Positions 38,861-58,242 of a stretch of 64,000 nucleotides of DNA are shown in pieces. The stretch comes from Anaerococcus pacaensis 9403502 (GTDB lineage: Bacteria; Bacillota; Clostridia; Tissierellales; Peptoniphilaceae): the NCBI GenBank assembly GCA_000308255.3, contig HG326663.1, positions 1-64,000 on the forward strand, read 5' to 3'. A program made the translations under genes and the position numbers. The notes beneath the pieces are model-generated. The model had not been told where the DNA came from. It saw only the letters and a program-made list of their open reading frames with translations, and searched no databases. Numbering within the stretch: position 1 is the first letter of the stretch; each line of letters starts with the position of its first letter.

Positions 38861-38955
38861 GGGGGCGGATGAGTGTCTGGTGTGCTCTACGGTCTTCAAA
38901 ACCGTCGTGAGAAGTGTACTTCTTAGGTAGGTTCGATTCCTACCCGCTCCCGCCA
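38861..38955 (+). tRNA. selC: tRNA-Sec (anticodon TCA)
   Basis: A 95-nt selenocysteine tRNA. It has the 8-bp acceptor stem typical of bacterial tRNA-Sec (GGGGGCGG/CCGCTCCC), anticodon loop CTTCAAA with TCA, a long variable arm (GTGAGAAGTGTACTTCTTA), T-loop TTCGATT and encoded CCA. It reads the UGA codons of grdA and grdB. Its last base abuts the stop codon of selB on the opposite strand, with no intergenic space. Confidence 0.97.
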
Positions 38956-42157: not shown

Positions 42158-42228
42158 AATTCCTCCGTTTAGTTTATTATACAAAATAAATAAATTTTTC
42201 TCAAATAAGTAAGAAATCGCTATCCAAC

Positions 42229-42257
42229 TTGAAAAGTAATTCAAAAAGTGATAAAAT
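42229..42257 (+). promoter_or_regulatory. Promoter of the grd operon
   Basis: TTGAAA, a 17-bp spacer and TAAAAT predict a start near 42264, just before the glycine aptamer. Confidence 0.55.
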
Positions 42258-42276
42258 ATTATCAAGTTCAAGTGAA

Positions 42277-42364
42277 GTTGCAATGAGATTTAATTTAAAA
42301 CCGAAGGTACAAGCTAGTGACTTAGTCGACACTAGCGAATTTCTCAGGTCCAAGGAGTTGCAAC
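42277..42364 (+). promoter_or_regulatory. Glycine riboswitch (gcvT type), single aptamer
   Basis: P1 pairs GTTGCAA (42277) with TTGCAAC (42358). P2 pairs TGAGA (42284) with TCTCA (42342), and P3 pairs GCTAGTG (42313) with CACTAGC (42330). The conserved aptamer sequences ACCGAAGG and CTCAGG are at the expected places. A second, incomplete aptamer-like stretch (ATGAGATTCTGGAGG) and the hairpin GTTAC/GTAAC at about 42381-42412 follow before the grdX ribosome site. No terminator with a T-run is seen, so control may be translational or act through the ghost aptamer. Confidence 0.85.
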
Positions 42365-42430
42365 AGATGAGATTCTGGAGGTTACGACAGAAGGTAAGAC
42401 TAGCAAGAGTAACTTTTATTTGGAGGATAT

Positions 42431-42811
42431 ATGTTAATTACCAATAATCCTAGATTTAAGGATTATAAACCAGATTACTATGACCTTAAAGTTATCTATA
42501 TGGATGTAGAGCCTTTAGAAATATTAAAGGAAGCGCGTAGCTATATCCAAAAAGGCTACAAGCTATTATCTCATCCCCTATATGGTAATTTTAGAGCTCA
42601 AGAAATCTTTTATAGGTCAATAGTTGTTGAAGAGTCAAATGAGGTAGATTTATTATCACTTGATCTTATAGAACATTCTGTAAATAAAATAGAGAATATT
42701 CTATCAAAGCAAAATAAAAGAATCGCAACCGAAAAGATGCTAGATGACTATAGTTACATTGACTTTCAAATAATGAGGGAAAACATGGAAGGAGGAATGT
42801 TACATGTATGA
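42431..42811 (+). CDS. grdX: GrdX protein of the glycine reductase operon
   Basis: A 126-residue protein of the GrdX family, found at the head of many glycine reductase operons. The opening LITNNPRF and the block LLSHPLYGNFR, KEIFYRS-like, are typical; no catalytic motif is known. The C-terminal half is helical and charged. Its role is not established; position suggests assembly or regulation of the Grd complex. It begins after TTTGGAGG, directly downstream of the glycine riboswitch, and overlaps trxB by 8 bp. Confidence 0.85.
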   Translation: MLITNNPRFKDYKPDYYDLKVIYMDVEPLEILKEARSYIQKGYKLLSHPLYGNFRAQEIFYRSIVVEESNEVDLLSLDLIEHSVNKIENILSKQNKRIATEKMLDDYSYIDFQIMRENMEGGMLHV

Positions 42812-43748
42812 ATTAGTAATCATTGGTGCAGGCCCAGCAGGACTTGCAGCAGGTCTTTACGCTGGTCGTGCTAGACTAAATACACTAATTCTTGAGAAAG
42901 ATGCTGTCGGTGGTCAAATCGCTATTTCTGATGAAATAGAAAACTACCCAGGTGGTAAAGCTGGTGAGCCAGAATCTGGTAAAGAGCTTACAAACAGAAT
43001 GAAAGCTCAAGTAGAAAGATTTAATGTACCTATTCAAAAGGCTAATGTAGTAAGCGTTGACCTTAAAGGTGATGTTAAAAAACTTGAACTAGCTACAGGT
43101 GAAACTATCGAAGCAAAAGCAGTACTTATTGCAACAGGTGCAAATCCTAAAAAACTAAATGTTCCTGGTGAAAAGGAATTTACTTCTAAGGGTGTATCAT
43201 ACTGTGCAACATGTGATGCGGATTTCTTCTCAGATCTAGAAGTATTCGTAGTAGGAGCTCGTAACTCTGCTGTTGAAGAAGCTATGTATCTGACAAAATT
43301 TGCTAGAAAAGTTACTATTCTTTGTAGACGTGAAAAACTAAGATGTGATGCTATCGTTAAAGAACGTGCAGAAGCTATTGATAATCTTGAAGTACTTTAT
43401 AACACTTCTATCAAAGAAATCAGAGGCGAAGGCGTTGTTAACCAATTACTATTAGTAAATAACGAAACCAAAGAAGAATGGACTTACGATGCTGATGAAG
43501 AAGATGGCTTATTCGGTGTATTCGTATTCATAGGTTATGATCCAAACAATGCATTATTTGTAGATCAAGTTGAAATGGATGATTCTGGCTACATCATAGC
43601 AGATGAACATATGAGAACAAATCTTAAAAATGTATACGTTGCTGGTGACCTAAGAAACACTGTACTAAGACAAGTAATCACAGCAGCAGCTGACGGTGCA
43701 ATTGCAGCAGTAACAGCAGAAAAAGAACTAAAAGAACTAGATTATTAG
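42804..43748 (+). CDS. trxB: Thioredoxin reductase (grd-linked), altered NADPH site
   Basis: A 314-residue flavoprotein that keeps the operon's thioredoxin reduced. The FAD loop is IIGAGPAGLAAGLYAGRA, the redox pair is CATC (Cys134, Cys137), and the C-terminal FAD motif is VYVAGDLRNTVLRQVITAAADG. In the nucleotide domain the usual GGGxSA reads GARNSA (151-156) and the usual HRRxxxR reads CRREKLR (174-180). The second Gly and the His are thus replaced, so NADPH use is uncertain. It lies between grdX and trxA, as in other glycine reducers. Confidence 0.92.
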   Translation: MYELVIIGAGPAGLAAGLYAGRARLNTLILEKDAVGGQIAISDEIENYPGGKAGEPESGKELTNRMKAQVERFNVPIQKANVVSVDLKGDVKKLELATGETIEAKAVLIATGANPKKLNVPGEKEFTSKGVSYCATCDADFFSDLEVFVVGARNSAVEEAMYLTKFARKVTILCRREKLRCDAIVKERAEAIDNLEVLYNTSIKEIRGEGVVNQLLLVNNETKEEWTYDADEEDGLFGVFVFIGYDPNNALFVDQVEMDDSGYIIADEHMRTNLKNVYVAGDLRNTVLRQVITAAADGAIAAVTAEKELKELDY

Positions 43749-43758
43749 GAGTTTAATT

Positions 43759-44082
43759 ATGATGCTATCACTTGATAAAACAAACTTTGAAGAAGAAGTA
43801 CTAAACCACGAAGGTAAAGTATTTGTTGACTATTGGTCAGAATCATGTGTTCCATGCATGGCGCTTAAACCATTCGTTGACGAACTTGCTGAAGAATTTG
43901 GCGACAAAATGAAATTCTGTGACCTAAACATTACAGGTGCTCGTAGAGTTGCTATCAAACAAGGTGTACTAGGTCTTCCAACAATGATCGTTTATGAAAA
44001 CGGTGAAAAGCTAGAAGAACTTCACGAAGACGAATGTACTGAAGAAAAAATCAGAGAAATCGTTGAAAAACACGCTAACTAA
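43759..44082 (+). CDS. trxA: Thioredoxin, CVPC active site
   Basis: A 107-residue thioredoxin, the electron donor for glycine reductase. The active site is WSESCVPC (Cys30, Cys33) in place of the common WCGPC; the cis-Pro loop is GLPTMIVY. Substitutions at this site are usual in thioredoxins of glycine-reducing clostridia and probably go with the modified TrxB. It follows trxB by 10 bp and precedes grdE by 24 bp. Two adjacent ATGs occur at the start; either could serve. Confidence 0.93.
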   Translation: MMLSLDKTNFEEEVLNHEGKVFVDYWSESCVPCMALKPFVDELAEEFGDKMKFCDLNITGARRVAIKQGVLGLPTMIVYENGEKLEELHEDECTEEKIREIVEKHAN

Positions 44083-44106
44083 TTAAATATTTAATAAGGA
44101 GTTTAT

Positions 44107-45393
44107 ATGCGTCTAGAATTAGGTGAAATCTTAATTGAAGATATTCAATTTGCTGAAAAATCTGAAATTAAAGACCACGTTCTTTATGTTAATAAAGAAG
44201 AATTATTAGAAGCCGCTAAACTCTCTGAAACATATCTTGAATCGCTTGATTTTGAAATTGCAAAACCAGGCGATGAAACAAGAATCATTCCTGTTAAAGA
44301 TGTTTTAGAGCCAAGAGTTAAAACAGAAGGCGGCAAAATCTTCCCAGGCATCTTAAATGATGTTGACCAAGTTGGTTCAGGTGTAACAAAATGTCTAAAA
44401 GGCATGTCAGTTATTACAACAGGTTCAATCGTAGGTTTCCAAGAAGGAATCATCGATATGACAGGTGAAGGTGCAAAATACACACCATTCTCTAAACTTA
44501 ACAACCTTGTAGTAATAGCTACAGTTAAAGAAGGCGTTGAACAAAAGAACCACGAAGAATCAGTTCGTATGGTTGGCTTAAGAATTGCTGAATTTATCGG
44601 TAAACTTGCAGCTGATCTTGAATGTGATGAAACAAAAGTATACGAAACTAAAACTATCAAAGAAATCCACCAATTAAACAACGGACTTCCAAATGTAGTT
44701 TATGTATACATGCTTCAAACACAAGGTCTATTACACGATACTTACGTATACGGTGTGGATGCTAAAAGAATTATCCCAACATTCATCTACCCTACTGAAG
44801 TAATGGATGGTGCTATCGTATCAGGTAACTGTGTATCTGCGTGTGATAAAAACCCAACATACGTACACTTAAACAACGAAGTAATCAAAAGACTATATGA
44901 AGAAGATGGTAAAACATTAAACTTCATGGGTTGTATCATTACTAACGAAAACGTGTATCTAGCTGATAAGAAAAGATCTTCTGACATGGCAAGTAAATTA
45001 GCACAACTTATCGGTGCTGACGCTGCTATCGTAAGCCAAGAAGGTTTCGGTAACCCAGATACAGACCTTATCATGAACTGTACAAAACTTGAAAAGAAAG
45101 ATATCAAGACAGTTCTAATCACTGATGAATACGCTGGACAAGACGGAGCTAGCCAATCTCTAGCAGATGCTGATCCACTAGCAACAGCAACAGTAACAGG
45201 TGGTAACGCAAACGAAGTAGTAGTACTTCCAAAAATCGACCACATCATCGGTGACCAAAACGCAGTACTAGTAATAGCTGGTGGTAGCGATCAAGCTATC
45301 CTTGAAGACGGCTCACTAAGAGTTGAAGTTCAAGCTATCACAGGTGCTACAAACGAAACTGGATTTAACTATCTAACAGCTAAAGGTTTATAA
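44107..45393 (+). CDS. grdE: Glycine reductase component B, alpha/beta precursor (GrdE)
   Basis: A 428-residue proprotein that self-cleaves to give two subunits of the substrate-binding component PB. The cleavage site is GNCVSACD: cutting before Cys242 turns that residue into the pyruvoyl group, which binds glycine as a Schiff base. Downstream are the typical stretches ITNENVYLADKKRSSDMASKL and ALLTKADG-like VSQEGFGNPDTDLIMNC. It could in principle serve sarcosine or betaine, but the glycine riboswitch and symporter favour glycine. It is highly codon-adapted, like the rest of the operon. Confidence 0.95.
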   Translation: MRLELGEILIEDIQFAEKSEIKDHVLYVNKEELLEAAKLSETYLESLDFEIAKPGDETRIIPVKDVLEPRVKTEGGKIFPGILNDVDQVGSGVTKCLKGMSVITTGSIVGFQEGIIDMTGEGAKYTPFSKLNNLVVIATVKEGVEQKNHEESVRMVGLRIAEFIGKLAADLECDETKVYETKTIKEIHQLNNGLPNVVYVYMLQTQGLLHDTYVYGVDAKRIIPTFIYPTEVMDGAIVSGNCVSACDKNPTYVHLNNEVIKRLYEEDGKTLNFMGCIITNENVYLADKKRSSDMASKLAQLIGADAAIVSQEGFGNPDTDLIMNCTKLEKKDIKTVLITDEYAGQDGASQSLADADPLATATVTGGNANEVVVLPKIDHIIGDQNAVLVIAGGSDQAILEDGSLRVEVQAITGATNETGFNYLTAKGL

Positions 45394-45460
45394 TTTTTAA
45401 ATTTCCAGTAAGATAATAATAAGAACGTAACTATTATAAATAAAAATACAAGGAGAAAAA

Positions 45461-45934
45461 ATGTCTAACTTATTAGAAAATAAAAAGATCATAATCCTTG
45501 GTGACCGTGACGGTATCCCAGGAGATGCGATCAAAACATGTGTTGAGACAGTTGACAACACAGACGTTATTTTTTCAGCTACTGAATGTTTCGTCTGAAC
45601 AAGCGCCGGCGCTATGGACTTAGAAAACCAAAAGAGAGTTAAAGCTTTCGCAGAAGAATACGGTAGAGATAATATCGTGGTTTTACTAGGTGCAGCAGAA
45701 GCCGAAGCGGCAGGTCTGACCGCAGAAACAGTAATGGGTGGCGATCCTACATTTGCAGGACCTCTTGCAAACGTCGAACTAAAACTTCCAGCTTACCACG
45801 TAGTTGAAGAAGAAATCAAATCAATAGTTGATCCAGACGTTTACGATGAAGAAATCGGCATGATGGAAATGGTTCTAGATGTCGACGAAATTGCTGAAGA
45901 AATGAATGACATCAGAGAGGAATTCCTCGATTAA
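45461..45934 (+). CDS. grdA: Glycine reductase selenoprotein A (GrdA), in-frame UGA = Sec46
   Basis: A 157-residue selenoprotein. The reading frame holds TGA at 45596-45598 (codon 46) in the context [14 protein letters not shown], the conserved GrdA redox site. Open frame and family similarity continue on both sides to TAA at 45934. GrdA takes the carboxymethyl group from PB as a Se-carboxymethyl selenoether, passes acetyl to PC and is re-reduced by thioredoxin. AAGGAG precedes ATG 45461. Automatic callers would report only the fragment from 45614. Confidence 0.96.
45599..45620 (+). promoter_or_regulatory. Candidate bacterial SECIS in grdA
   Basis: Immediately after the UGA, AGCGCCGGCGCT is self-complementary and can form a short hairpin a few nucleotides downstream, within the span expected of bacterial SECIS elements. 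The exact loop is unclear, and Gram-positive SECIS consensus is loose. Confidence 0.35.
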
Positions 45935-45949
45935 TTATAAGGAGAAGAT

Positions 45950-47254
45950 ATGGCTATTAAATTAGTTCATTACGTAAACCAGTTCTACGCTGGTATTGGT
46001 GGTGAAGAAGTTGCCGATACAAAACCATTTGTAGCTGACACTCTTCCTCCAATTTCTGAGCAACTCCAAAAACAACTTGGCGATGACTTTGAAGTTGTAG
46101 CTACAGTTGTATGTGGTGACTCATACTACAACGAAAATGAAGCTAGTGCAAAAGAAGAAATCCTTGGCATGATCAAAGGATTTGATCCAGACTTCTTTAT
46201 AGCTGGTCCTGCATTTAACGCTGGTCGTTACGGTGTTGCAGCAGGTTCTATCACAGCAGCTGTAAAAGAAGAATTAAACATCCCTGCTATCACTGGTATG
46301 TATGTTGAAAACCCAGGTGCAGATATGTTTAAAAAGTCAGTATACATTGTTGAAACAAAAGACAGTGCTGCTGGCATGAGAAAAGCTATCAAATCATTAG
46401 CAACTCTAGCTCAAAAAATCGCAAATAACGAAGAAGTATCACCAGCAGCTGATGGTTATTTGGCTCAAGGTGTTAGAAAGAACTACTTTGCAGAAGAAAA
46501 TGGTTCTACACGTGCTGTTGAAATGCTTCTTAAGAAAATCAATGGCGAAGAATTTGAAACAGAATATCCAATGCCTACATTCGACAGAGTTGATCCACAA
46601 CCTGCAGTAGAGGATGTTTCAAAAATTAAAATCGCTCTAGTAACATCAGGTGGTATTGTTCCAAAAGGAAACCCTGACCACATCGAATCATCATCTGCTT
46701 CTAAATACGGTAGATATGACATCGAAGGTATTGATGCATTTACAAGTGAAAATGCAGAAACAGCACACGGTGGTTATGACCCAACATATGCAAACCACGA
46801 TCCAAACAGAGTACTTCCTCTAGATGTACTTAGAAATATGGAAAAAGAAGGAAAAATTGGTTCCCTTCACAACTACTACTACTCAACAGTAGGTAACGGT
46901 ACAGCTATCGCATCAGCTAAAAAATTCGGTGAAGAAATTGCTGAATACCTAAAAGAAGATAAAGTTGACGCAGTTATATTAACCAGTACATGAGGTACCT
47001 GTACACGTTGCGGTGCAACAATGGTTAAGGCTATAGAAGCAGCAGGATTCCCTGTGGCTCACATGTGTACAATCACACCAATTTCTCTAACAATTGGTGC
47101 TAACAGAATTGTACCTACAATAGCAATCCCTCACCCACTTGGTAATCCAGAAATGACAGCGGATGAGGAATATCAACTTCGTTACAACCTAGTTGAAAAA
47201 GCTCTAAGAGCTTTAGAAACTGAAATTTCAGAACAAACTGTTTTTGAAAATTAG
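45950..47254 (+). CDS. grdB: Glycine reductase component B gamma selenoprotein (GrdB), in-frame UGA = Sec348
   Basis: A 434-residue selenoprotein, the large subunit of PB. TGA at 46991-46993 is codon 348, in the motif U-GTC-TRC, which matches the GrdB UxxCxxC site. Sequence before (VDAVILTST) and after (GATMVKAIEAAGFP) keeps family similarity to TAG 47254. It cleaves the C-N bond of glycine, releasing ammonia and delivering the carboxymethyl group to GrdA. AAGGAGAAGAT precedes the ATG. Without recoding it would be split into 347- and 77-residue pieces. Confidence 0.96.
46994..47019 (+). promoter_or_regulatory. Candidate bacterial SECIS in grdB
   Basis: Downstream of the UGA, GTTGC-GGT-GCAAC (47007-47019) forms a 5-bp hairpin with a GGU loop. 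Its distance from the UGA (about 13 nt) and the G and U in the loop resemble known bacterial SECIS elements. Confidence 0.45.
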
Positions 47255-47262
47255 GAGGCATA

Positions 47263-48804
47263 ATGTATCCAGTAATTAAATGTGCAGGATTTACATTAGC
47301 AAATGCTCCCAGCTTAATGGATGTAGCTGGGAGTACATTTGTTCAAGAAAAGCACAATAATCCTGACGGTGATTTTCTAAAAAACTACAAATCACATGTA
47401 AGAAGCTTTGAAGACGTAGTAAGCTACCTACCTAACCAAATCTACATAGGTAACGAAAGAATCGAAGCACTAGAAGATAAGCAAATGCCATTTTCTAGTC
47501 TAGATTATTCAAGCGATAAAACTGAAGGTAAATTTGGTCAAATCCTTAGAGAAGAAGAATTATATTTATTACTTCAAATGGTAGACGAATTCGACCTAGT
47601 ATTTTTATCAGAAGATTTCATCAATGCTAATTCTGAATCACTTAAGGAAAAATTCCCAGAATTAGAAAATCGTTTCGCTAAACTAAAAGGCTCTGATTTA
47701 TCTAAAGGTAATGATTTATTAGAATCTCACATGGCTGAACCTCTAAACCACGATGGTGAACTTGTAGGTTATGTAAAAGCAGCTCACGATTCTGACGGTA
47801 ACTTAGGTGCAGAGTATATGCTTGAAAACCTTGTAGTAAAAGCTACAGGTGTTATCGCTGGTCTAAATGTACTTAGAACTGGTGTAGACAAAGATTCTAT
47901 CGAATATGTAGTAGAATGTTCTGAAGAAGCTGCTGGAGATGTAAACCAAAGAGGTGGTGGTAACATCGCTAAATCAATCGCAGAAGTACTAGGCCTTGGT
48001 AATGCTACAGGTTCTGATACAAGAGGATTCTGTGCAGCACCAATCCACTCTATAATTGAAGCTGCAGCTTTAGTAAAAGCTGGCGTTTACAAAAACGTAC
48101 TTGTAGTAGCTGGTGGATCTGTACCAAAACTTGGTATGAACTCACGTGACCACGTTAAAAAAGACCTACCTATTTTTGAAGATGTTATCGCTGGATTTGC
48201 AACACTAATTTCTGAAAACGACGGAGTTTCTCCAGAAATCAGAACAGACGTTGTAGGTCGTCACACAGTTAATACTGGATCAAGCCCACAAGCTGTTATC
48301 ACATCACTAGTTGCAAAACCACTAAATGATAATGGTTTCAAAATCACAGATATTGATAAATTCTCACCAGAAATGCAAAACCCAGATATCACAGTTCCTG
48401 CAGGTGCTGGTAACGTACCAGAAGCAAACTACAAAATGATCGGTGCTCTTGCAGTTAAAAATGGTGAATTAGAAAAGAAAGAACTTCCAAACTTCATTAA
48501 AGAAAAAGGAATGGTTGGTTGGGCTCCTACACAAGGACATATCCCTTCAGCTGCTCCATATATCGGACAAATGATCGAAGATATCAAAGATGGTAAAATC
48601 GAACGTGCTATGCTTATAGGTAAGGGTTCCCTATTCCTAGGTAGACTTACAAACCTATTTGACGGTGTATCAGTACTAATCCAAAAAAATAGTGGAGAAT
48701 CTGACGAAGCAACAGCTACATCATCAAACGATAGCGAAGAAATCAAAAACTTCCTAGCAGAAGCTCTAAGAAAAATTTCAGAAGATTTAACAAAGGAAGC
48801 TTAA
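47263..48804 (+). CDS. grdC: Glycine reductase component C, beta subunit (GrdC)
   Basis: A 513-residue subunit of the acetyl-transfer component PC. It resembles the FabH/thiolase fold: RGGGNIAKSIAEVLG, TRGFCAAPIHSIIEAA with a thiolase-like Cys, and GWAPTQGHIPSAAPYIG near the C-terminus. PC accepts the acetyl group from GrdA and releases acetyl phosphate after phosphorolysis. It begins 8 bp after grdB with GGAGGC before the ATG, and grdD follows 2 bp after its stop. The length and the C-terminal helical tail are family-typical. Confidence 0.95.
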   Translation: MYPVIKCAGFTLANAPSLMDVAGSTFVQEKHNNPDGDFLKNYKSHVRSFEDVVSYLPNQIYIGNERIEALEDKQMPFSSLDYSSDKTEGKFGQILREEELYLLLQMVDEFDLVFLSEDFINANSESLKEKFPELENRFAKLKGSDLSKGNDLLESHMAEPLNHDGELVGYVKAAHDSDGNLGAEYMLENLVVKATGVIAGLNVLRTGVDKDSIEYVVECSEEAAGDVNQRGGGNIAKSIAEVLGLGNATGSDTRGFCAAPIHSIIEAAALVKAGVYKNVLVVAGGSVPKLGMNSRDHVKKDLPIFEDVIAGFATLISENDGVSPEIRTDVVGRHTVNTGSSPQAVITSLVAKPLNDNGFKITDIDKFSPEMQNPDITVPAGAGNVPEANYKMIGALAVKNGELEKKELPNFIKEKGMVGWAPTQGHIPSAAPYIGQMIEDIKDGKIERAMLIGKGSLFLGRLTNLFDGVSVLIQKNSGESDEATATSSNDSEEIKNFLAEALRKISEDLTKEA

Positions 48805-48806
48805 TT

Positions 48807-49952
48807 ATGGATAAATTAAGTTTAGCTAAATCACTTGAAGAAATCGCTAGCCTTTTAGAAAGTGGTGAAAGTTTAAACAAGCCTACCATAGCTGTTACAA
48901 ACTTCCTTTCTGAGCTAGGTCTAGATAATGTAAATAACGCCATCAATAATGTAAAAGATGACGCTAATATAATTATCGTTGGCGAAAAATTCACAGATGA
49001 ATTTGAATATTACGAAGCTAAAGATGATGCTACAAATGCAGATGTAATCGAAAATCTATTTAAAGAAGGCAAAATCGATGCTGCTATTACTATGCACTAC
49101 CCATTCCCTATCGGCGTATCTACCGTAGGCCGTGTTATAGCTCCAGCTAATGGTAAACAAGTATACGTAGCAAACACAACAGGTACAAATGATACCAACC
49201 GTGAAAAAGCTATGGTACTAAATGCTATAGACGGTATTATCGCTGCAAAAGCAAACGGTATCGAAAATCCAACAGTAGGTATCCTAAATGTTGATAGTGC
49301 ACGTGTAGTAGAAAAGAAACTAAATGAGCTTAAAGAAAATGGCTTTGACATAAACTTTGGATCTAGCCAAAGAGCTGACGGTGGTGCTGCACTTCGTGGT
49401 AACGACGTGCTAGCAGCTAGTACAGATGTCATCGTATGTGATTCACTTACAGGTAATGTCCTCCAAAAAGTGTTCTCATCATTTAACTCAGGTGGATTCT
49501 ACGAAACTACAGGATCAGGCTACGGCCCATCTATTGGTGAAGGATTCTATACACCAGTATTTATCGTAAGTCGTGCTAGTGGTACTCCAGTTATTGAAAG
49601 TGCTATTAGATATGCTATAGATTCTGTAAAAGGTAATATCAACCAAGTATCTAAAGACGTATTTGCATCTGCTAAAAAAGCTGGTCTTGAAGATGTACTA
49701 AAATCTCTCGAACCAAAAGCAGCAGCAGCTAGCGAATCCACAGAAGAAGTAAAAGTTCCAGACAAGGAAATTGTTAATGGATCTATCGGTGGTATCGACA
49801 TCCTTGAAATTGATGATGCTATTACAGCAGTACACAAAGCTGGTATCTATGCAGAATCAGCTATGGGATGTACCGGTCCAGTTGTCATGGTAAATGAAGC
49901 ACATATAGAAGAAGTTAAAAAAGTATTACAAGAAAATAACTTCATCGAATAA
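48807..49952 (+). CDS. grdD: Glycine reductase component C, alpha subunit (GrdD)
   Basis: A 381-residue PC subunit that holds the acetyl thioester. A PlsX-like fold is suggested by the middle (VIVCDSLTGNVLQKVFSSF, YGPSIGEGFYTPVFIVSRASG). The catalytic Cys is in AESAMGCTGPVVMVNE, residue 355, the position equivalent to the acetyl-binding Cys of known GrdD proteins. It is the last gene of the grd operon proper, with a weak hairpin after it, so the symporter downstream may receive read-through transcription. Confidence 0.95.
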   Translation: MDKLSLAKSLEEIASLLESGESLNKPTIAVTNFLSELGLDNVNNAINNVKDDANIIIVGEKFTDEFEYYEAKDDATNADVIENLFKEGKIDAAITMHYPFPIGVSTVGRVIAPANGKQVYVANTTGTNDTNREKAMVLNAIDGIIAAKANGIENPTVGILNVDSARVVEKKLNELKENGFDINFGSSQRADGGAALRGNDVLAASTDVIVCDSLTGNVLQKVFSSFNSGGFYETTGSGYGPSIGEGFYTPVFIVSRASGTPVIESAIRYAIDSVKGNINQVSKDVFASAKKAGLEDVLKSLEPKAAAASESTEEVKVPDKEIVNGSIGGIDILEIDDAITAVHKAGIYAESAMGCTGPVVMVNEAHIEEVKKVLQENNFIE

Positions 49953-51541: not shown

Positions 51542-51567
51542 AAAACCGGGATTTAAGTCCCGGTTTT
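51542..51567. terminator. Bidirectional terminator
   Basis: AAAACCGGGA-TTTAAG-TCCCGGTTTT with TTTT beyond on the plus strand and A-rich sequence on the other side. It ends the symporter gene and the convergent selenium operon. Confidence 0.85.
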
Positions 51568-51569
51568 TT

Positions 51570-52706
51570 TTATCTATATTCATTTGCAATTTCTTTTACT
51601 ACTTCTATTGCCTTTTCTATCTCTTCCATCTCGTTAAAATACGAAAATGAAAATCTACATATGCCCTGGTCTTGAGTCCCAAAATGCTCATGAATGAGCG
51701 GAGCGCAGTGGGCACCAGGCCTTGTTTGTATGTCGTATTCATCATCTAATATGAGAGCAAGCTCTGATGAGTCCATGTCAGCTAGATTGAAACTTACTAT
51801 AGCTGTAGTATTTTCTCCTGGTTCTTTAGAATATATCTTTATTCCTTCTATATCCTTAATACCGTCATAAAAGGCCTTAGTAAGCTCTGTAAGCTTTTTA
51901 TTTATACTTCCTATACCAATATCCAAAATGTATCTTAAACTCGCATCAAAGGCTATTTGAGTCATGAAATTACTAGTCCCTACTTCAAATACATCTGGGA
52001 ATTCTTTTGGGTGGCAGTGGTCAAATGAGTTCATGCCGGATCCACCAGCAAAGACATTTTTAAAATCAAAGTCCCCTACCTTTACTATTCCACCAGTACC
52101 AGTAGGTCCATAAAGTGATTTGTGGCCTGTAAAGACGAAGATGCTATTATCATATTTTGACAAGTCAGTATCCACACATCCTGCAGTTTGAGCCATATCT
52201 ACTATCATGGTTAAATTATGCTCATTTGCAATCTCATGCATCTTATCTAGGTCATTGATGTTTGCTAGTAAGTTTGAAGCATGGTTTATTACTAATAACT
52301 TCGTATTATCCTTAACCATCTCATTGATTTTATCAAGCTCTAAATTGCAATTTTCATCAAAATCTACAAATGAAAGCTCTGCCCCTGTTTGATATAGGGG
52401 TCTAAGGACTGAGTTGTGCTCAGTAGTCGATGTGATGACATGGTCCTCATCAGTGATTAGCGATTTGATTACCATATTTAGGCCAAAACTAGCATTTTCG
52501 GTAAGGGCTATATCAGATGGGTCATCTATGTGAAATATTTCTGCAAGACTAGTCTTTGTCTGGTAGATTCCTAGCATGGAGTTTTGCGATAGGCTATGGC
52601 CTGACCTAGATGGGTTGCCGAAATTACCAGCATTTAATATTTCTATATATTTTTCTTTCAAACTATCCGGTTTATGGATAGTGGTCGCCCCATTATCAAA
52701 GTACAT
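51570..52706 (-). CDS. Cysteine desulfurase-like enzyme, paralogue 1
   Basis: A 378-residue class V PLP aminotransferase-fold protein (CsdA/SufS-like). It opens with MYFDNGATTIHKP, carries TEHNSVLRPL, the PLP lysine in FTGHKSLYGPTGTGG, and the persulfide Cys in RPGAHCAPLIHE. Such enzymes release sulfur from cysteine or selenium from selenocysteine. Last gene of the selenium operon, it overlaps DUF3343 copy 1 by 11 bp. The first gene of the operon (56826-57992) is a clear paralogue with its own DUF3343 partner. Delivery of selenium to SelD is inferred. Confidence 0.88.
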   Translation of the reverse strand: MYFDNGATTIHKPDSLKEKYIEILNAGNFGNPSRSGHSLSQNSMLGIYQTKTSLAEIFHIDDPSDIALTENASFGLNMVIKSLITDEDHVITSTTEHNSVLRPLYQTGAELSFVDFDENCNLELDKINEMVKDNTKLLVINHASNLLANINDLDKMHEIANEHNLTMIVDMAQTAGCVDTDLSKYDNSIFVFTGHKSLYGPTGTGGIVKVGDFDFKNVFAGGSGMNSFDHCHPKEFPDVFEVGTSNFMTQIAFDASLRYILDIGIGSINKKLTELTKAFYDGIKDIEGIKIYSKEPGENTTAIVSFNLADMDSSELALILDDEYDIQTRPGAHCAPLIHEHFGTQDQGICRFSFSYFNEMEEIEKAIEVVKEIANEYR

Positions 52707-52959
52707 GCTTTTCTATCACTCTCTTCCTGCCCTCATGGCTTAGGGTGTAGATACCTACATAGTCATCCTTACCTAATATTTCTAATGCCTTATCAAGATC
52801 ATCAAGTCCTACACGCAAACTATTCCCACAACCTGCAGAGATTTCTGGAGGTAGTGGGATTAGTCGTGCACTTTTTAATTTACCATTCACTTTAGCAAGG
52901 GCCTTTGTAGCATCCCCAGTTGATTTGAATGAAAATAAGTAATATTCAATCATTAGCAA
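52696..52959 (-). CDS. DUF3343 putative Se/S carrier, copy 1
   Basis: An 87-residue DUF3343 protein. It shares with copy 2 (56605-56829) the motif RLIPLPPEISAGCG, whose single invariant Cys could carry persulfide or perselenide. Pairing with a cysteine desulfurase and YedF in selenium loci underlies the carrier proposal; no biochemistry can be read from sequence. It overlaps YedF by 7 bp and the desulfurase gene by 11 bp, so the three are coupled. The C-terminal extension after the motif (VYTLSHEGRKR-type) is longer than in copy 2. Confidence 0.8.
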   Translation of the reverse strand: MLMIEYYLFSFKSTGDATKALAKVNGKLKSARLIPLPPEISAGCGNSLRVGLDDLDKALEILGKDDYVGIYTLSHEGRKRVIEKHVL

Positions 52960-53561
52960 GGAGAAACTACGTGATTGCTTCTAAGCTCTTCTACGATTTT
53001 ATACATATTGGTGATTTCACCAACTGCAAGTTTATCTTTAACTTCATAGTGTTCTAAGCATAAGCCGCAAGAATAAATTCTAACGCCACGTTCTTCAAGA
53101 GTTTTAAGGTCTTCAATAGTTTTTTCGTTTTCTGTAGTTAGATATACGCCTGTATTGAAGAAAATCATTTCTACTGGCAGCTGATCTTGTTCTGTGAGAG
53201 CATATATAAAGCCTTCTAGTATTTGCTTAGAGAATTCTTCTTCTCCATCGCCGATTTTGTTTGAATTAATTGCTACAATGTAGTTATTGCTTGTAGCTTG
53301 ATCTACAGAATAATCTTCGATTTCTCTGTGGTCTTTAGATTGGTCTGTTTTTGTTAGGCTCACCTTGTATTCTCTGTCAGCTACTTTTTCTACAGCTGAC
53401 TCTATTTTTAACTCACGAGCCATTTTTGTTAGGTTTTCAGTGGACACCTCATTGTCTACTAATACTTCAAATTCTGTTTCGTCAGGATTTTCTCTAAGAG
53501 CTTTTTTAGTTTCAATTACTGGAATTGGACATGCTTTACCTAATACATCTACTTTAATCAT
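52953..53561 (-). CDS. yedF: Selenium metabolism protein YedF (TusA-DsrE fusion)
   Basis: A 202-residue two-domain protein. The N-terminal TusA-like domain has GKACPIPVIETKKAL with Cys11. The C-terminal DsrE-like domain has IVAINSNKIGDGEEEF and a redox-type pair in YSCGLCLEHY. The family tracks SelD and selenium use across genomes and is thought to relay selenium as a perselenide. It starts 8 bp after selD. The three Cys would suit hand-over between DUF3343 or the desulfurase and SelD; this is inference. Confidence 0.88.
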   Translation of the reverse strand: MIKVDVLGKACPIPVIETKKALRENPDETEFEVLVDNEVSTENLTKMARELKIESAVEKVADREYKVSLTKTDQSKDHREIEDYSVDQATSNNYIVAINSNKIGDGEEEFSKQILEGFIYALTEQDQLPVEMIFFNTGVYLTTENEKTIEDLKTLEERGVRIYSCGLCLEHYEVKDKLAVGEITNMYKIVEELRSNHVVSPC

Positions 53562-53569
53562 ATTGCCTC

Positions 53570-54583
53570 CTATTTTACTATGATTGGGGTTGATCTTCTT
53601 AGTTTTACTTCCCCGATTTCATAAATTTGCATTTCTTTTTCATTAAACTCTGCTATTATCTTATCTGCTGTAGGTCTATCTACACTTACCATTAAACCAC
53701 CACTTGTTTGTGGATCAAATAGAACTTCTTCAAGTCCCATGTTTTCGATGTAAAATTCTACTTTGTTGCCTAGGTAGTTTCTGTTGTTTTGACCACCTGA
53801 TGTGAAATAAAATTCATTGGCAAGGTCAATGGCTGGGTTTAAAACTGGAACTTTTTTGCTGTCTACTACGATGGTGAAATCATCTTCTGCCATCTCAGAT
53901 AAGTGGCCAAGTAGGCCAAAGCCAGTTACATCTGTAGCAGCGTGAATATCGTAGTTTACGAAGATATCACGTGCATACTTATTTAGATAGGACATTTGGT
54001 CTGTACAAGCCTTAAAGTCTTCTTCGCTTACAAGTCCAGCATTGTATGAAGATGTCACAAGGCCTACACCAAGCTTTTTGGTTATTAGGATGACATCGCC
54101 ATTTTGTGGTGTGTTGTTCTTCCATATCTTATCTGGATGAACCTTGCCTGTTACAGAAAGACCATATTTGGTAAGTGGGTCGTGGATAGAGTGCCCACCT
54201 GTGAGAGATCCGCCAGCTTCAACTACCTTATCATTGCCACCCCTAAAGATTTCTCTAAGGATATCAAAGTCACCTTCTAATGGGAACATAGCAATATTTA
54301 GGGCACAGACTACCTCTCCACCCATAGCATAGATATCACTCATACTATTGGTCGCTGCTATTTGACCAAATAGGTATGGGTCTTCTACCATAGATGGAAA
54401 GAAGTCTAGAGTTTGAATAACAGCCACATCATCACTCATTTGGATAACAGCTGCATCGTCTTTTTTATCAAAGCCTACGATGATGTCATCGCGTTTTAGT
54501 GGTTCTATGTCATATAATAGCTTGTCTAGGTTGCCTGCTGCAATTTTCGCATTGCAACCACCACAAACCTCGAGTTTACTCAT
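53570..54583 (-). CDS. selD: Selenide, water dikinase SelD
   Basis: A 337-residue enzyme that makes selenophosphate from selenide and ATP. The N-terminal glycine-rich loop CGGCNAKI carries Cys7 and Cys10; some relatives have Sec there, this one Cys. AIRS-type ATP-binding parts follow: DDAAVIQ, QTLDFFPSMVEDPYLFGQIAATNSMSDIYAMGG and GGHSIHDP. The C-terminal PQTSGGLMVSV is intact. It lies mid-operon, 68 bp after the double-cubane gene, the largest internal gap, so an extra internal promoter is possible. Confidence 0.95.
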   Translation of the reverse strand: MSKLEVCGGCNAKIAAGNLDKLLYDIEPLKRDDIIVGFDKKDDAAVIQMSDDVAVIQTLDFFPSMVEDPYLFGQIAATNSMSDIYAMGGEVVCALNIAMFPLEGDFDILREIFRGGNDKVVEAGGSLTGGHSIHDPLTKYGLSVTGKVHPDKIWKNNTPQNGDVILITKKLGVGLVTSSYNAGLVSEEDFKACTDQMSYLNKYARDIFVNYDIHAATDVTGFGLLGHLSEMAEDDFTIVVDSKKVPVLNPAIDLANEFYFTSGGQNNRNYLGNKVEFYIENMGLEEVLFDPQTSGGLMVSVDRPTADKIIAEFNEKEMQIYEIGEVKLRRSTPIIVK

Positions 54584-54651
54584 GTAATCACTTCCTTGTT
54601 AAAATTATTATCATTAATATTGTACGATAATATTAGACTTTTAACAGGAAC

Positions 54652-55821
54652 TTATAACATTTCTACAAAGGCTGCCATTCTTGTGTTGATTTGTCCAACG
54701 TCTGCTTGTGAGAAATCTGTTTCTACATAGGTGTATGGTACACCTTTTTCTTCTTGGCAGAAGTTTTTGATTTGTTCGCGTTCTACATTGTAGGTATGGC
54801 AAGCAACAAGGTCCATTTCTACTACACCATCAGCCTTATACTCATCAATCATTCTACCAAGTAGCTCAAACCTCTTTTCATCTGGTGTCATAACTGAGCA
54901 TCCAATATCTAGGTATCTGCGAGCTAGGGCTTCGTATATATCTTCAGCTTCAAGATCTATATTATTGTCAAATCTCTTCTCACCATTACAGTTTTCAAAA
55001 CCAACTATCTGACCACCAGCAGCTTCTATTGCCTTGATCACTTTTTCTGGTGCACCACCTATTGGACAACCTGTTATAATTATCCTAGGTTTTCTTTCTC
55101 TTTTTTCAGGATCGTATTCATCTAGGACTTGTTGAGTGATTGCCCTAACTTGAGCTGGTATTTCTTCCTTGTTTGGATTATACATAACACCATTTGATAC
55201 CTTAAAGAAGCCGTATCCATCCATTGGTGCTGGGTCTAGTCTCATAGTATTTGCAAGATCTTTTAGAGCATCTCTGATATCATTTCCAAGCTTAGCAGAT
55301 TTCCTTAGACTCTCTTCTGTAATTTCCGAGTCTAATTTTTGTTCGATATAGTCCTTAAAGTCTAGGATTTCTTGCTTCCAAGCCCTAAGTGACTTATCAC
55401 TTTGATCATTTGGTAGGTTTAATACATATGTCTCTTTGATGTTATCATTCATTAATTCATACATCTTTTTCTTACCATCGCAGGTAGTCTCACCTACAAT
55501 TATGTCAGAAAAATAGAAAAATGGACACTTATCAGTTGCAGCAAAACCATATGAGGCCTTAATCATTGGACATAGGTTTTTTGGAAGTACCTTCTCAGCT
55601 TCCTCTATAGTTTCATCAGATGTTTGGCAAAGACCCACAGAACTTGCTCCCGCAGCCCATGCTAATTCTTCAGGGAAATATGTACAATATGCTCCAACTA
55701 ATGGTATGCCCTTATCTTTAAGTTCTTTAATGCTTAGAAAGGCATTTTTTCTAGCATCTGCGAATTGTTCAAATGTTTCTGGTAGGTCGTGTATGTAAAT
55801 ATTTTCTTTAACGTCTGTCAT
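54652..55821 (-). CDS. Double-cubane-cluster type reductase (HgdB/YjiM family)
   Basis: A 389-residue member of the 2-hydroxyacyl-CoA dehydratase beta/D family. Cysteines suited to iron-sulfur ligation occur in GAYCTYFPEEL, KNLCPMIKAS, TDKCPFFYF, GETTCDGKKKMYE, FENCNGEKRF and VACHTYNVER. A single subunit with its own activase, with no dehydratase partner subunit, is the arrangement of double-cubane proteins that do ATP-driven low-potential reductions. The overlap with the activase is 4 bp. Position between DUF3343 and SelD suggests a role in selenium (or sulfur) reduction; the substrate is unknown. Confidence 0.82.
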   Translation of the reverse strand: MTDVKENIYIHDLPETFEQFADARKNAFLSIKELKDKGIPLVGAYCTYFPEELAWAAGASSVGLCQTSDETIEEAEKVLPKNLCPMIKASYGFAATDKCPFFYFSDIIVGETTCDGKKKMYELMNDNIKETYVLNLPNDQSDKSLRAWKQEILDFKDYIEQKLDSEITEESLRKSAKLGNDIRDALKDLANTMRLDPAPMDGYGFFKVSNGVMYNPNKEEIPAQVRAITQQVLDEYDPEKRERKPRIIITGCPIGGAPEKVIKAIEAAGGQIVGFENCNGEKRFDNNIDLEAEDIYEALARRYLDIGCSVMTPDEKRFELLGRMIDEYKADGVVEMDLVACHTYNVEREQIKNFCQEEKGVPYTYVETDFSQADVGQINTRMAAFVEML

Positions 55822-56594
55822 CTTTTTTTCTTCTCCTTTGCTAAAAGTGCAGCTCCATATGAGCCTGCAAACTTTCCATTTTCAGTTGTTGCTACTTCTG
55901 TCTTCAATTTTTCACCTAGGACTTTGGCAAAATAGTCCACAGAGCTTAGGCCGCCTGTAAGTATAACTGGATTGTTATCCACTGATCTACTTGCAAGATT
56001 GCTTACTTTTGTTGCTACCGAATCGATAACGCCCGCTGCTATATCCTCCTTGTCCCTTCCTTCACCAATGTATGAGATAATCTCACTTTCAGCAAAAACC
56101 GTGCACATGGAACTAATTGCAATTGGCTCGCCTTCGCTTGCTGCACGAAACATCTCTTCTAGGGTGAAATTTAGCTTATCTGCCATGATTTCAATAAAAC
56201 GACCAGTACCTGCTGAGCACTTGTCATTCATCTGAAAATCAGTGACAAATCCATTTTCTAACTTTATAGACTTGGTGTCCTGGCCACCAACATCTACTAT
56301 AGTGACATCCTTACTATTTGATAACTCCCTGCCGCCTCTGCCATGGCAAGTAATCTCTGTGATCACAAAGTCCGCATAGTCTACAGATATGCGGCCATAG
56401 CCTGTTGCCACAGTCCTCACCTCGTCAGAGTCGACATCGACACCGTATTTATCTGCTATTTTCTCTTTTATAATCCTTGCAGTTTCCTTGCTTGACCAGC
56501 CTGTCGGCATCACAAAATGGTCAACGGTGCCATCGGGAGTTATAACCGAAATTTTTGCAGCAGTAGATCCAATATCTATGCCTACATAATACAT
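55818..56594 (-). CDS. ATP-dependent activase (HgdC/YjiL family)
   Basis: A 258-residue ASKHA-fold ATPase that injects an electron into the reductase encoded next. Motifs: GIDIGSTAAKISVI (phosphate 1), VDVGGQDTK (phosphate 2), and the two cysteines that hold the bridging [4Fe-4S] cluster of the dimer, in NDKCSAGTGRFIE and SSMCTVFAESE. It overlaps the reductase start by 4 bp and begins 10 bp after DUF3343 copy 2. The length is normal. Confidence 0.88.
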   Translation of the reverse strand: MYYVGIDIGSTAAKISVITPDGTVDHFVMPTGWSSKETARIIKEKIADKYGVDVDSDEVRTVATGYGRISVDYADFVITEITCHGRGGRELSNSKDVTIVDVGGQDTKSIKLENGFVTDFQMNDKCSAGTGRFIEIMADKLNFTLEEMFRAASEGEPIAISSMCTVFAESEIISYIGEGRDKEDIAAGVIDSVATKVSNLASRSVDNNPVILTGGLSSVDYFAKVLGEKLKTEVATTENGKFAGSYGAALLAKEKKKR

Positions 56595-56604
56595 ACGTCC
56601 TCCC

Positions 56605-56829
56605 TTAGATATCTATAACAACCACCTCAGTATATTTGATGTTATTCTCTTTTAATATGCTAATAGCCCCATCCTTGTCATCACTTTCATAATCCCAGGC
56701 TAGTCCACAGCCAGCTGATATCTGATTTGGTATAGGTATTAGCCTACCAGATACATCAGAGTGCTTACTAAAGTCCTCCATCGCCATGGCATCTGTTGTG
56801 GTGTCAAATGTGATAATTGCAGTATTCAT
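56605..56829 (-). CDS. DUF3343 putative Se/S carrier, copy 2
   Basis: A 74-residue DUF3343 protein with GRLIPIPNQISAGCGLAW, containing the only Cys. It is shorter than copy 1 and ends as a beta-strand (YTEVVVIDI). It overlaps the first desulfurase gene by 4 bp and leads directly to the activase. The two DUF3343-desulfurase pairs bracket the operon in mirror order, so either a duplication produced separate delivery routes or each pair serves a different acceptor. Confidence 0.8.
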   Translation of the reverse strand: MNTAIITFDTTTDAMAMEDFSKHSDVSGRLIPIPNQISAGCGLAWDYESDDKDGAISILKENNIKYTEVVVIDI

Positions 56830-57992
56830 TTATACTCCTTCGATATTTCATCAATCGCTCTAATAGCCTCATCGATTTCTTCTTTCGTATTAAAATAAGA
56901 TAGAGAAAATCTCAAAAGTCCTTGGTGGTCAGTGTCCAATGCTTTATGCATCAAAGGTGCGCAATGAGCCCCTGCTCTAATCGCGATATCATACTTACTT
57001 GCCAAAAGGTCAGCTGCTTTTGATGAATCAATACCAGCGATATTTATAGAAACTATGCCAACTCTTTGATTGAGATCTGGATTGCCATAATAGATAATAT
57101 CTGGAATTTCCCTTAGCTGGTCTACGAAGTATTTCTTTAGTTCATCCTCTTTAGCTTTGAGTTTATCAAGACCTTCTTCTAGTATAAAGCTAACTCCACC
57201 ATTTAGGGCAACTATACCGTGACCATTTAGAGTCCCTGCTTCTAGTCTTTCTGGCATAGTCGTTGGATGGATTCTATCAAAGCTCTTAACACCAGAGCCA
57301 CCCACCTTAAGCGGATCGATGTCTATACCGTCTCTTACATAGATTCCACCAGTGCCCTGGATTCCAAAGAGGCCCTTGTGTCCTGTAAAGCAGAGGATAT
57401 CAATCCCCATAGACTCTATGTCTATATCTATAACTCCCGCACTTTGGGCTGCATCGACTATCATAATAAGATTATGTTTTTTACAAATCTCAGATACCTT
57501 TTTTAGATCAGTAATATTACCAGTGACATTTGAAGCATGAGTGATGATAAGTGCTTTGGTATTTGAACAAATGAAACTTTCTAGTGAATCGATGTCTAAG
57601 ATTCCCTTGCGATTGTCTACCTCATCTCCCTTTATAATATCTAAAAATGAAATGTCTATCACACCAGCATCTTCTAATCTATATAGTGGGCGAAGCACCG
57701 AGTTGTGCTCAGCAACAGTCGTAATCACATGGTCACCCTTTCTAAATAAGCCATTTATAGCTATATTTAAGCTCTCTGTGGCATTGGCCGTAAAGGCTAT
57801 GTCTTTTGGACTTGGCGCATTAAATAGCTTGGCGAGTTTTATCCTTGTATCTAAGATATACCTAGATGTATCGAGGCTTGCCCTATTGAATCCGCGACCA
57901 TTGTTACCTAGCTTATTAACTGAACCTAAGAGATTGTCATAGACCTGTTGGGGCTTTTTCATAGTTGTGGCTGCATTGTCAAAATAAATCAT
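56826..57992 (-). CDS. Cysteine desulfurase-like enzyme, paralogue 2
   Basis: A 388-residue class V PLP enzyme: MIYFDNAATTMKKPQ, VAEHNSVLRPLYRL, PLP lysine in FTGHKGLFGIQGTGG, persulfide Cys in RAGAHCAPLMHK. It resembles paralogue 1 along its length, but is diverged. First gene of the selenium operon, it starts downstream of a terminator-bearing leader (57993-58206); GGTAGG lies 5 bp before the ATG. Selenocysteine lyase or cysteine desulfurase activity is inferred from family. Confidence 0.88.
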   Translation of the reverse strand: MIYFDNAATTMKKPQQVYDNLLGSVNKLGNNGRGFNRASLDTSRYILDTRIKLAKLFNAPSPKDIAFTANATESLNIAINGLFRKGDHVITTVAEHNSVLRPLYRLEDAGVIDISFLDIIKGDEVDNRKGILDIDSLESFICSNTKALIITHASNVTGNITDLKKVSEICKKHNLIMIVDAAQSAGVIDIDIESMGIDILCFTGHKGLFGIQGTGGIYVRDGIDIDPLKVGGSGVKSFDRIHPTTMPERLEAGTLNGHGIVALNGGVSFILEEGLDKLKAKEDELKKYFVDQLREIPDIIYYGNPDLNQRVGIVSINIAGIDSSKAADLLASKYDIAIRAGAHCAPLMHKALDTDHQGLLRFSLSYFNTKEEIDEAIRAIDEISKEYK

Positions 57993-58206
57993 TCTACCTA
58001 CCTTTATATAACAAAAAAAACTCTAAGCAATCACGCATAGAGTTTTAAAATTATTAATGGCATCACAAAGAAACACAACTCTTGTGCGGGATAGAAAAGA
58101 GTGTACTAAGCATCTGCTTTCTTTTCTAAGTGATTATTAATAATATATATGTAATTTATCGATGATAATTAAGTGTACTCATTGAATTTATCAATTTAAT
58201 TATCAA
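57993..58206 (-). promoter_or_regulatory. Structured 5' leader with attenuator, unknown class
   Basis: Between the promoter and the first selenium gene the minus strand holds, in order: a stem ATCAC...GTGAT (58133-58062) extended by AAAGAAA/TTTCTTT, an enclosed hairpin ACTCTT/AAGAGT with a 13-nt loop, then a terminator (58017-58046). AGAGTT of the enclosed hairpin can instead pair with AACTCT of the terminator, giving mutually exclusive forms. It matches no riboswitch consensus I know. A 16-codon frame, MLSTLFSIPHKSCVSL then UGA (58113-58063), lies inside. Confidence 0.6.
58017..58046 (-). terminator. Attenuator terminator in the selenium operon leader
   Basis: AAAACTCTA and TAGAGTTTT form a 9-bp stem with a 12-nt loop, followed by a run of at least eight T on the minus strand. 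It precedes the desulfurase ATG by about 24 bp, so it can only act as a regulated terminator of this operon. Confidence 0.75.
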
Positions 58207-58212
58207 CCAATT

Positions 58213-58242
58213 ATATTAAACTATTAAATAATATTTTGTCAA
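58213..58242 (-). promoter_or_regulatory. Promoter of the selenium operon
   Basis: Consensus TTGACA, an 18-bp spacer and TAATAT on the minus strand. The predicted start is near 58206. Confidence 0.6.

Follow-up and report, generated by a model that had tools for sequence, protein, structure and literature searches.

How a cell can produce usable selenide and yet not release a free, toxic pool of it has long been an open question, and one locus in Anaerococcus pacaensis 9403502 poses it in a particular form: why should the gene for selenophosphate synthetase (selD) follow directly on genes for an ATP-driven double-cubane reductase and its activase? Solved structures and in vitro reactions are on record for double-cubane reductases; to our knowledge, no physiological role has been established for the known double-cubane-cluster protein (DCCP). 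The locus lies in the first 64,000 nucleotides of contig HG326663.1 (assembly GCA_000308255.3), and this whole stretch is called the window here. Eight genes on its minus strand, from a first start codon at 57992 to an operon end at 51570, form what is probably a selenium-supply operon, in which the reductase belongs to an accessory module that would reduce a selenium compound and pass Se(-II) to carriers and to SelD. The near-exclusive presence of DCCP in selenium users, a control on gene linkage, and carriers whose lineages match their gene context all point to selenium supply.

Two modules joined in one operon

An eight-gene operon on a single strand had been proposed in an initial annotation of the sequence, and this is borne out: all eight open reading frames (ORFs) are intact, with no internal stops, and the gaps between them in transcription order are -4, 10, -4, 68, 8, -7 and -11 bases. 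The longest gap, of 68 bases (54584-54651, minus strand like all the genes of the operon), is where two selenium modules meet end to end. Module 1 consists of desulfurase A, DUF3343 A, the activase and DCCP, and is followed by module 2, with selD, yedF, DUF3343 B and desulfurase B.

The core of module 1 is the DCCP (54652-55821, 389 amino acids; NF040772 484.1 bits, cut-off 350), the only one in the genome. Its AlphaFold2 (AF2) model (pLDDT 88.6) has 6eno as its best Foldseek match (E 4e-29, TM 0.90, root-mean-square deviation 2.1), followed by DCCP:DCCP-R complexes and then by dehydratase and benzoyl-CoA reductase subunits; by sequence, the match to 6eno scores 236 bits. Eight cysteines (C46, C65, C84, C99, C114, C278, C308 and C341) are invariant in 16 aligned rows and all align with cysteines of 6eno, C99 being only nearly invariant in a wider alignment of 26 rows. 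Against the HadC profile the protein scores 91 bits (cut-off 700), and no second HGD gene is present in the operon. The activase (55818-56594, 258 amino acids; TIGR00241 222.9 bits, cut-off 125.4), a DCCP reductase-type ATPase with cysteines at 83, 126 and 164, is encoded directly upstream, its gene overlapping that of DCCP by 4 bases.

The remaining genes encode lyase-like enzymes, carrier-like proteins and SelD. Desulfurase A (56826-57992, 388 amino acids; TIGR01977 440.1 bits, cut-off 377) and desulfurase B (51570-52706, 378 amino acids; 356.6 bits, below the same cut-off) are desulfurase or selenocysteine-lyase-like pyridoxal phosphate (PLP) enzymes, and both translations keep RxGxHC, as the catalytic-type motif RAGAHC in A and as RPGAHC in B. 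Since they score 338.5 and 279.2 bits against the SclA profile NF040779, below its cut-off of 525, they are not filed as SclA, although each may be able to act in an SclA-like manner. The Se/S-carrier-like DUF3343 proteins each have a single cysteine, aligned to an invariant Cys-Gly: Cys41 in DUF3343 A (56605-56829, 74 amino acids; PF11823 80.5 bits, cut-off 25) and Cys44 in DUF3343 B (52696-52959, 87 amino acids from a TTG start, with an alternative ATG 6 bases inside it; 53.5 bits against the same cut-off). SelD (53570-54583; TIGR00476 342.5 bits, cut-off 125) is of the cysteine form, with CNAK near its N-terminus, presumably the catalytic Cys/Lys pair. YedF (52953-53561, 202 amino acids; TIGR03527 215.9 bits, cut-off 110) has a TusA domain (PF01206) and a DsrE-like domain (PF02635), and keeps CPIP. 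We take RxGxHC, Cys41 and Cys44, CNAK and CPIP to be the functional motifs of the lyases, the DUF3343 proteins, SelD and YedF.

The AF2 model of DUF3343 A (pLDDT 90) is a beta-alpha-beta-beta-alpha-beta fold in a ferredoxin-like arrangement. A Foldseek search with this model gave no match under E 0.001, and VIA-align ranked the UreE C-domain best (Z 7.3), with Atx1 at 5.9. No function was taken from the fold, as the likeness to UreE and Atx1 may reflect a common arrangement only.

The initial annotation had also described the two desulfurase/DUF3343 pairs as mirror-placed around the core. As a description of gene order this is correct; as a sign of recent duplication it is not. The operon looks mirrored because two modules that are separate in relatives meet here. 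In a genome of the same genus (G117), DUF3343 A, activase and DCCP are on one contig and the whole of module 2 is on another, and in a genome of the same family (G091) 0.9 Mb separate module 1 from selD-yedF. Two further genomes of the family (G206 and G227) have module 2 and no DCCP over the cut-off. Neofamilia massiliensis has the joined form without desulfurase A.

Gene trees place the modules apart as well. The window's SelD and YedF each fall in a starred set of eight rows (support 99 and 96), the other rows of which come from loci with module 2, either whole or as selD-yedF. Desulfurase B is in a starred set of eight (support 100), seven of them on the YedF/SelD side and one (L074) on the DCCP side, while desulfurase A, with support 82, joins DCCP-side lyases from Aedoeadaptatus and Peptoniphilus nemausensis. 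The rows nearest to the activase are module 1 rows of Aedoeadaptatus or Peptoniphilus; the DCCP stands beside the Aedoeadaptatus/Peptoniphilus module 1 group with a modest support of 81, its nearest row by path being that of Neofamilia. In the desulfurase tree, rows longer than 450 amino acids were trimmed to their last 400 residues, and L093 and rows shorter than 350 amino acids were left out of the DCCP tree.

On a DUF3343 tree of 57 rows, 5 changes suffice to explain gene context (DCCP/activase or YedF/lyase/SelD nearby), compared with 18 when shuffled, in a short alignment with many unresolved forks. Seven rows of more than 100 amino acids were dropped from it (L077, L125, L126, L130, L139, L140 and L146). 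DUF3343 A falls with the DCCP-linked carriers, and the rows nearest to DUF3343 B are YedF/lyase-linked. Judged by their sequences, the two carriers are of different, context-specific lineages, and the DUF3343 and desulfurase trees together support the two specialised lyase-carrier pairs that the initial annotation had put forward. A recent tandem duplication of one pair is ruled out, as the trees put the pairs in different lineages. The DUF3343 proteins beside a long DCCP lineage of about 425 amino acids (L039, L041, L042, L047, L053, L076 and others) mostly have C-C-G instead of the usual G-C-G.

Distribution and neighbours of the reductase

The reductase had been proposed to be tied to selenium, and its distribution agrees. 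Among 245 genomes drawn evenly from the window's class, DCCP exceeds its cut-off in 24, selD in 55 and long YedF in 51, and selD is present in all 24 DCCP genomes (hypergeometric P 2e-18; the P values given here are not corrected for relatedness). The test set beforehand was whether the reductase is equally common without selD: it is over the cut-off in none of the 190 selD-less genomes of the class. Within one genus, three genomes (G122, G169 and G190) have both DCCP and selD over the cut-off and a fourth (G146) has neither. Four of 200 genomes from the class of Enterococcus moraviensis (G276) have DCCP and 67 have selD, with selD in all four DCCP genomes. In 14 control genomes, DCCP and selD exceed their cut-offs in the same two, Escherichia coli and Methanocaldococcus jannaschii.

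A further set, of 80 named loci, was limited to the best 80 of 481 confirmed relatives and therefore samples distant DCCPs too thinly; in 50 of these, picked for spread, 49 genomes have selD. The genomes G276 and G292 (Aeromonas) are counted both in the named set and in the class draws, and the names of their classes were inferred from the organisms. SelB is present in 44 of 59 DCCP genomes, and YqeB, looked for in 24 genomes, is present in 14 of the 15 that lack SelB, the exception being a metagenome-assembled genome (MAG). As DCCP thus occurs with SelB or YqeB, its link is with selenium use in general and not with selenocysteine alone.

Gene neighbourhoods were compared at 113 DCCP loci (29 from the class draw, 80 named and 4 from Bacilli; one place, L052 and L093, is counted twice, and 14 stretches are shorter than 12 kb), with family calls from analyst-built profiles seeded from the window and analyst-set score thresholds. 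The activase is found at 83 loci, DUF3343 at 51, a lyase at 21, YedF at 13 and SelD at 10, and one or more scored selenium genes are present at 53 loci. At 44 loci a DUF3343 gene is no more than 400 bases from DCCP or the activase; these loci come from Clostridia, Enterobacteriaceae, Aeromonas and a Fusobacteriales MAG. DCCP, activase and DUF3343 also stand in a row in Enterobacteriaceae and Aeromonas, where two scanned DUF3343 proteins score 47.3 and 40.6 bits against PF11823.

Scored selenium genes occur within about 9 kb at 18 of the 28 class DCCP loci, whereas 22 loci of related HGD proteins other than DCCP have none (P = 8e-7); at the named DCCP loci the count is 30 of 67. Twenty of the control loci score 84-140 bits against the analyst's DCCP model and two score 232 and 282, and most have two adjacent HGD genes. 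At one of them (L167), a 66-amino-acid lyase fragment at the edge of the stretch scores 84 bits, under the threshold of 400. The control is made easier by eight loci that lie in genomes without an over-cut-off selD; when it is restricted to selD genomes, scored selenium genes are found at none of 14 non-DCCP HGD loci (P = 4e-5). The selD-linked reductases do not, as the initial annotation had envisaged, form a single clade: the 11 selD-linked rows need at least nine changes on the DCCP tree.

Other recurrent neighbours are MtaA-like methyltransferase, corrinoid-protein and RACo-type genes, which adjoin DCCP at 10, 7 and 7 of 109 loci, respectively. Up to 7 kb away are YqeB and MocA-like genes, at 5 of the 109 loci each, and molybdenum-cofactor genes at some loci; LysR_Se is a neighbour at 4. 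Each of these clusters takes its name from a single representative; those of the corrinoid protein, the corrinoid activase and MocA score below NCBIfam cut-offs, the first two above those of Pfam.

Several loci have unusual arrangements. A 713-amino-acid DCCP fused to a PucR-type helix-turn-helix (PF13556 51.1 bits) is encoded at L137:8989-11130, and proteins of similar length occur at L143 (713 amino acids) and L122 (723 amino acids). In a second fusion (L053:10513-12354, L055 and L056), a diphthamide-synthase-like PP-loop ATPase precedes the lyase in one protein, next to a trio of DCCP, DUF3343 and activase; the ATPase match, PF01902 at 95.8 bits, is from a scan of L053 alone. Tandem DCCPs of different lineages (382 and 419 amino acids), followed by DUF3343 and activase, are found at L033 within a corrinoid methyltransferase cluster.

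A proposed route to selenide

From these associations we infer a direction of selenium flow. Module 2 would be the ordinary route, in which the release of selenium from selenocysteine (or of sulfur from cysteine) by a lyase is followed by its binding to cysteine carriers, and SelD makes selenophosphate. In module 1, the activase would spend ATP to drive low-potential electrons into DCCP, which would reduce a selenium compound to Se(-II); the single cysteine of DUF3343 A would take the freed Se(-II) and hand it on towards SelD, and desulfurase A may be a second entry for selenium.

The nature of the compound is suggested by what other reductants can do. According to an excerpt of PMC8538045, the thioredoxin system can reduce selenite, although in one bacterium it needs an additional component to do so. 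As the thioredoxin system takes part in selenite reduction, ATP would seem to be wasted on selenite or perselenide, and DCCP more likely acts on a refractory or organic selenium compound than on either of these. A harder substrate such as an organic selenide would be a better fit, and the methyl-selenide gene clusters that neighbour DCCP point in that direction too. Genes for the nitrogenase-like MarHDK accompany non-selenium clusters (excerpt of PMC10418091), which suggests an analogy. It may be, although we hold this only as a tentative and rather doubtful extension, that, in organisms ranging from E. coli to strict anaerobes, DCCP, activase and DUF3343 make up an ATP-driven machine dedicated to selenium release, which cleaves C-Se (or Se-Se) bonds reductively and places the selenide on a carrier for SelD. 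If so, it would be the selenium counterpart of MarHDK, which cleaves C-S bonds, and the first physiological role for a double-cubane enzyme.

Several observations weigh against a role in selenium supply. DCCP over the cut-off is absent from 31 of the 55 selD genomes of the window's class, including G206 and G227 of the same family; a need of SelD as such for the reductase is thereby ruled out, and, since selD users often lack DCCP, DCCP is an accessory that SelD can dispense with. In the class of Aeromonas (G292; 185 genomes, DCCP in 3, selD in 39), only one of the three DCCP genomes has selD, the two selD-less ones scoring 356 and 362 bits against the cut-off of 350 and falling outside the DCCP clade. 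Aeromonas finlandensis has DCCP, SelB and YqeB, and no selD was found in it. No scored selenium gene is present at 60 of the 113 DCCP loci, in stretches of about 9 kb a side or less. Finally, DUF3343 is also found in selD-less organisms, according to an excerpt of Lin 2015 (PMC5322559).

The alternative that survives best, which we nevertheless think unlikely, is that DCCP and its activase re-reduce oxidised selenium-dependent enzymes, such as formate dehydrogenase, glycine reductase or selenium-dependent molybdenum hydroxylases, much as the methyl-coenzyme M reductase activation complex does, and are not a source of selenium. Such a role is compatible with the tie to selD and with presence alongside either SelB or YqeB, as are the YqeB, MocA-like and molybdenum-cofactor genes near some DCCPs, and ATP-driven enzyme activation has precedent (an excerpt of PMC12176620 mentions 'double-cubane'). 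The commonest partners of DCCP, however, are the activase, DUF3343, lyases, YedF and SelD, all of which have the look of supply genes, and the window's glycine reductase genes form a separate cluster on the plus strand.

Less probable again is a role in which DCCP and activase strip sulfane or oxidised sulfur from the cysteines of DUF3343, YedF and the lyases, so that selenium rather than sulfur is loaded. The sorting of DUF3343 lineages by DCCP/activase or YedF/lyase neighbours suggests the carrier itself as the partner of DCCP, as this role would have it, but a thiol reductase should manage such a task without ATP. That module 1 and selD are adjacent here by chance, with DCCP serving an unrelated anaerobic reduction, is strongly disfavoured: the modules do lie apart in same-family genomes, and more than half of the DCCP loci are away from scored selenium genes, but selD accompanies DCCP in 24 of 24, 4 of 4 and 49 of 50 genomes, the 22 control loci show no such linkage, selD linkage changes at least nine times on the DCCP tree, and the E. 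coli genes are co-expressed (excerpt of PMC7888660).

Leader, genomic setting and known systems

Upstream of desulfurase A is a leader of about 210 bases (57993-58242, minus strand; 57993-58206 within the stretch first annotated). A promoter-like TTGACA-18-TAATAT lies at 58242-58213, with 10 of 12 matches, and the ribosome-binding site is immediately preceded by a hairpin with a run of eight T after it. The leader is attenuator-like in sequence. Promoter-like sites are no commoner in the window than in shuffles (25 compared with 24.7), and the hairpin is not among the terminator-like matches; its folding z-score is -2.5. Compared with Rfam, the leader comes near the gathering score of no family, and in 40 relatives it has no full-length match, with 7 matches of 30-51 bases in 6 relatives (E 9e-5 to 9e-4). 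The idea of a leader peptide that would be read into the hairpin was given up because no clear ribosome-binding site was seen. At its other end, the operon is separated from a convergent AGCS symporter gene by a terminator-like hairpin (51542-51567, no strand assigned).

The genes for selenocysteine use and glycine reduction lie 2-19 kb from the operon. The tRNA-Sec gene selC (38861-38955, plus strand) is followed by selB (38956-40818, minus strand; profile match 38980-40803) and by selA (40808-42283, minus strand), named from its translation. The same-genus genome G117 has no over-cut-off SelB. Next are a glycine riboswitch (42272-42369) and thioredoxin reductase, thioredoxin and glycine reductase genes (42804-49952, plus strand), of which trxB, trx, grdA and grdD were named from translation. 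The grdA and grdB frames each cross one in-frame TGA, and a SECIS_4 match is present at 46994-47031. No sign of recent acquisition was seen in G+C content, which is 33-41% across the window in 2-kb steps and 37-41% over the operon.

The combination of this reductase with SelD had been described in the initial annotation as no characterised selenium pathway. For function this stands within the literature searched, where none was found for the DCCP reductase, although likely relevant papers lie outside that search and absence from print is not claimed. The association of DCCP with selenium, by comparison, is already in print (excerpts of PMC5322559, PMC10418091 and PMC7888660); what is new is the eight-gene arrangement.

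The closest known proteins are DCCP and DCCP-R of Carboxydothermus hydrogenoformans (6eno, 7yyl and 7yzm; PMC7306483), with which the window shares the family profile, the fold (TM 0.90), the eight aligned cysteines and the adjacent activase; the window's DCCP differs in having its gene placed among those for DUF3343, lyases, SelD and YedF. The 2-hydroxyacyl-CoA dehydratases and benzoyl-CoA reductases belong to the same superfamily and share the activase partner and the fold (TM 0.82-0.87 to HadC, BzdN and MbdN chains), but the second dehydratase subunit is absent from the operon. A dicubane cluster protein is provisionally linked to selenium in an excerpt of PMC10418091, which also describes type I mlp gene clusters (MGCs), corrinoid S/Se-methyltransferase clusters with a proposed role in methyl-selenide demethylation. 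The link of DCCP to selenium is common to both, as are the MtaA-like neighbours at 10 of 109 loci. Profiles detected no Mlp methyltransferase, corrinoid protein or corrinoid activase among the eight operon genes, and a reading by eye of the ORFs listed for 30-62 kb showed no corrinoid or methyltransferase gene.

In Table 1 of Lin 2015 (PMC5322559), the STRING partners of YedE, YedF, a LysR-like protein and DUF3343 in Slackia include activase and HGD subunits. The rows of that table give Slackia heliotrinireducens an activase, DUF3343 proteins, a Sec lyase, YedF, HGD subunits and SelD with neighbouring locus tags; the window differs in having all eight genes in a single run.

The trio at the heart of module 1 is also known from E. 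coli, where yjiM, yjiL and ytiA encode DCCP, activase and DUF3343 in a row as in the window, ytiA overlapping yjiL by 4 bases. Matches to the trio are found in 5335 of 5426 complete E. coli genomes, 5323 of them over at least 80% of the query (gene names from five listed records). Unlike the window's genes, the E. coli trio, in the one record viewed, has neither selD nor a lyase gene next to it. An excerpt of PMC7888660 describes an iModulon of ynjXYZABCD, yedEF, yjiLM and ynjE that is more active without oxygen and is proposed to serve molybdenum and selenium use, and in a table for the LysR regulator YgfI (PMC9068703, column headings unverified) the values for yjiM, yjiL and ynjE have the same sign. 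As yjiM-yjiL-ytiA is the same trio as that of the window, the role proposed here can be tested in E. coli.

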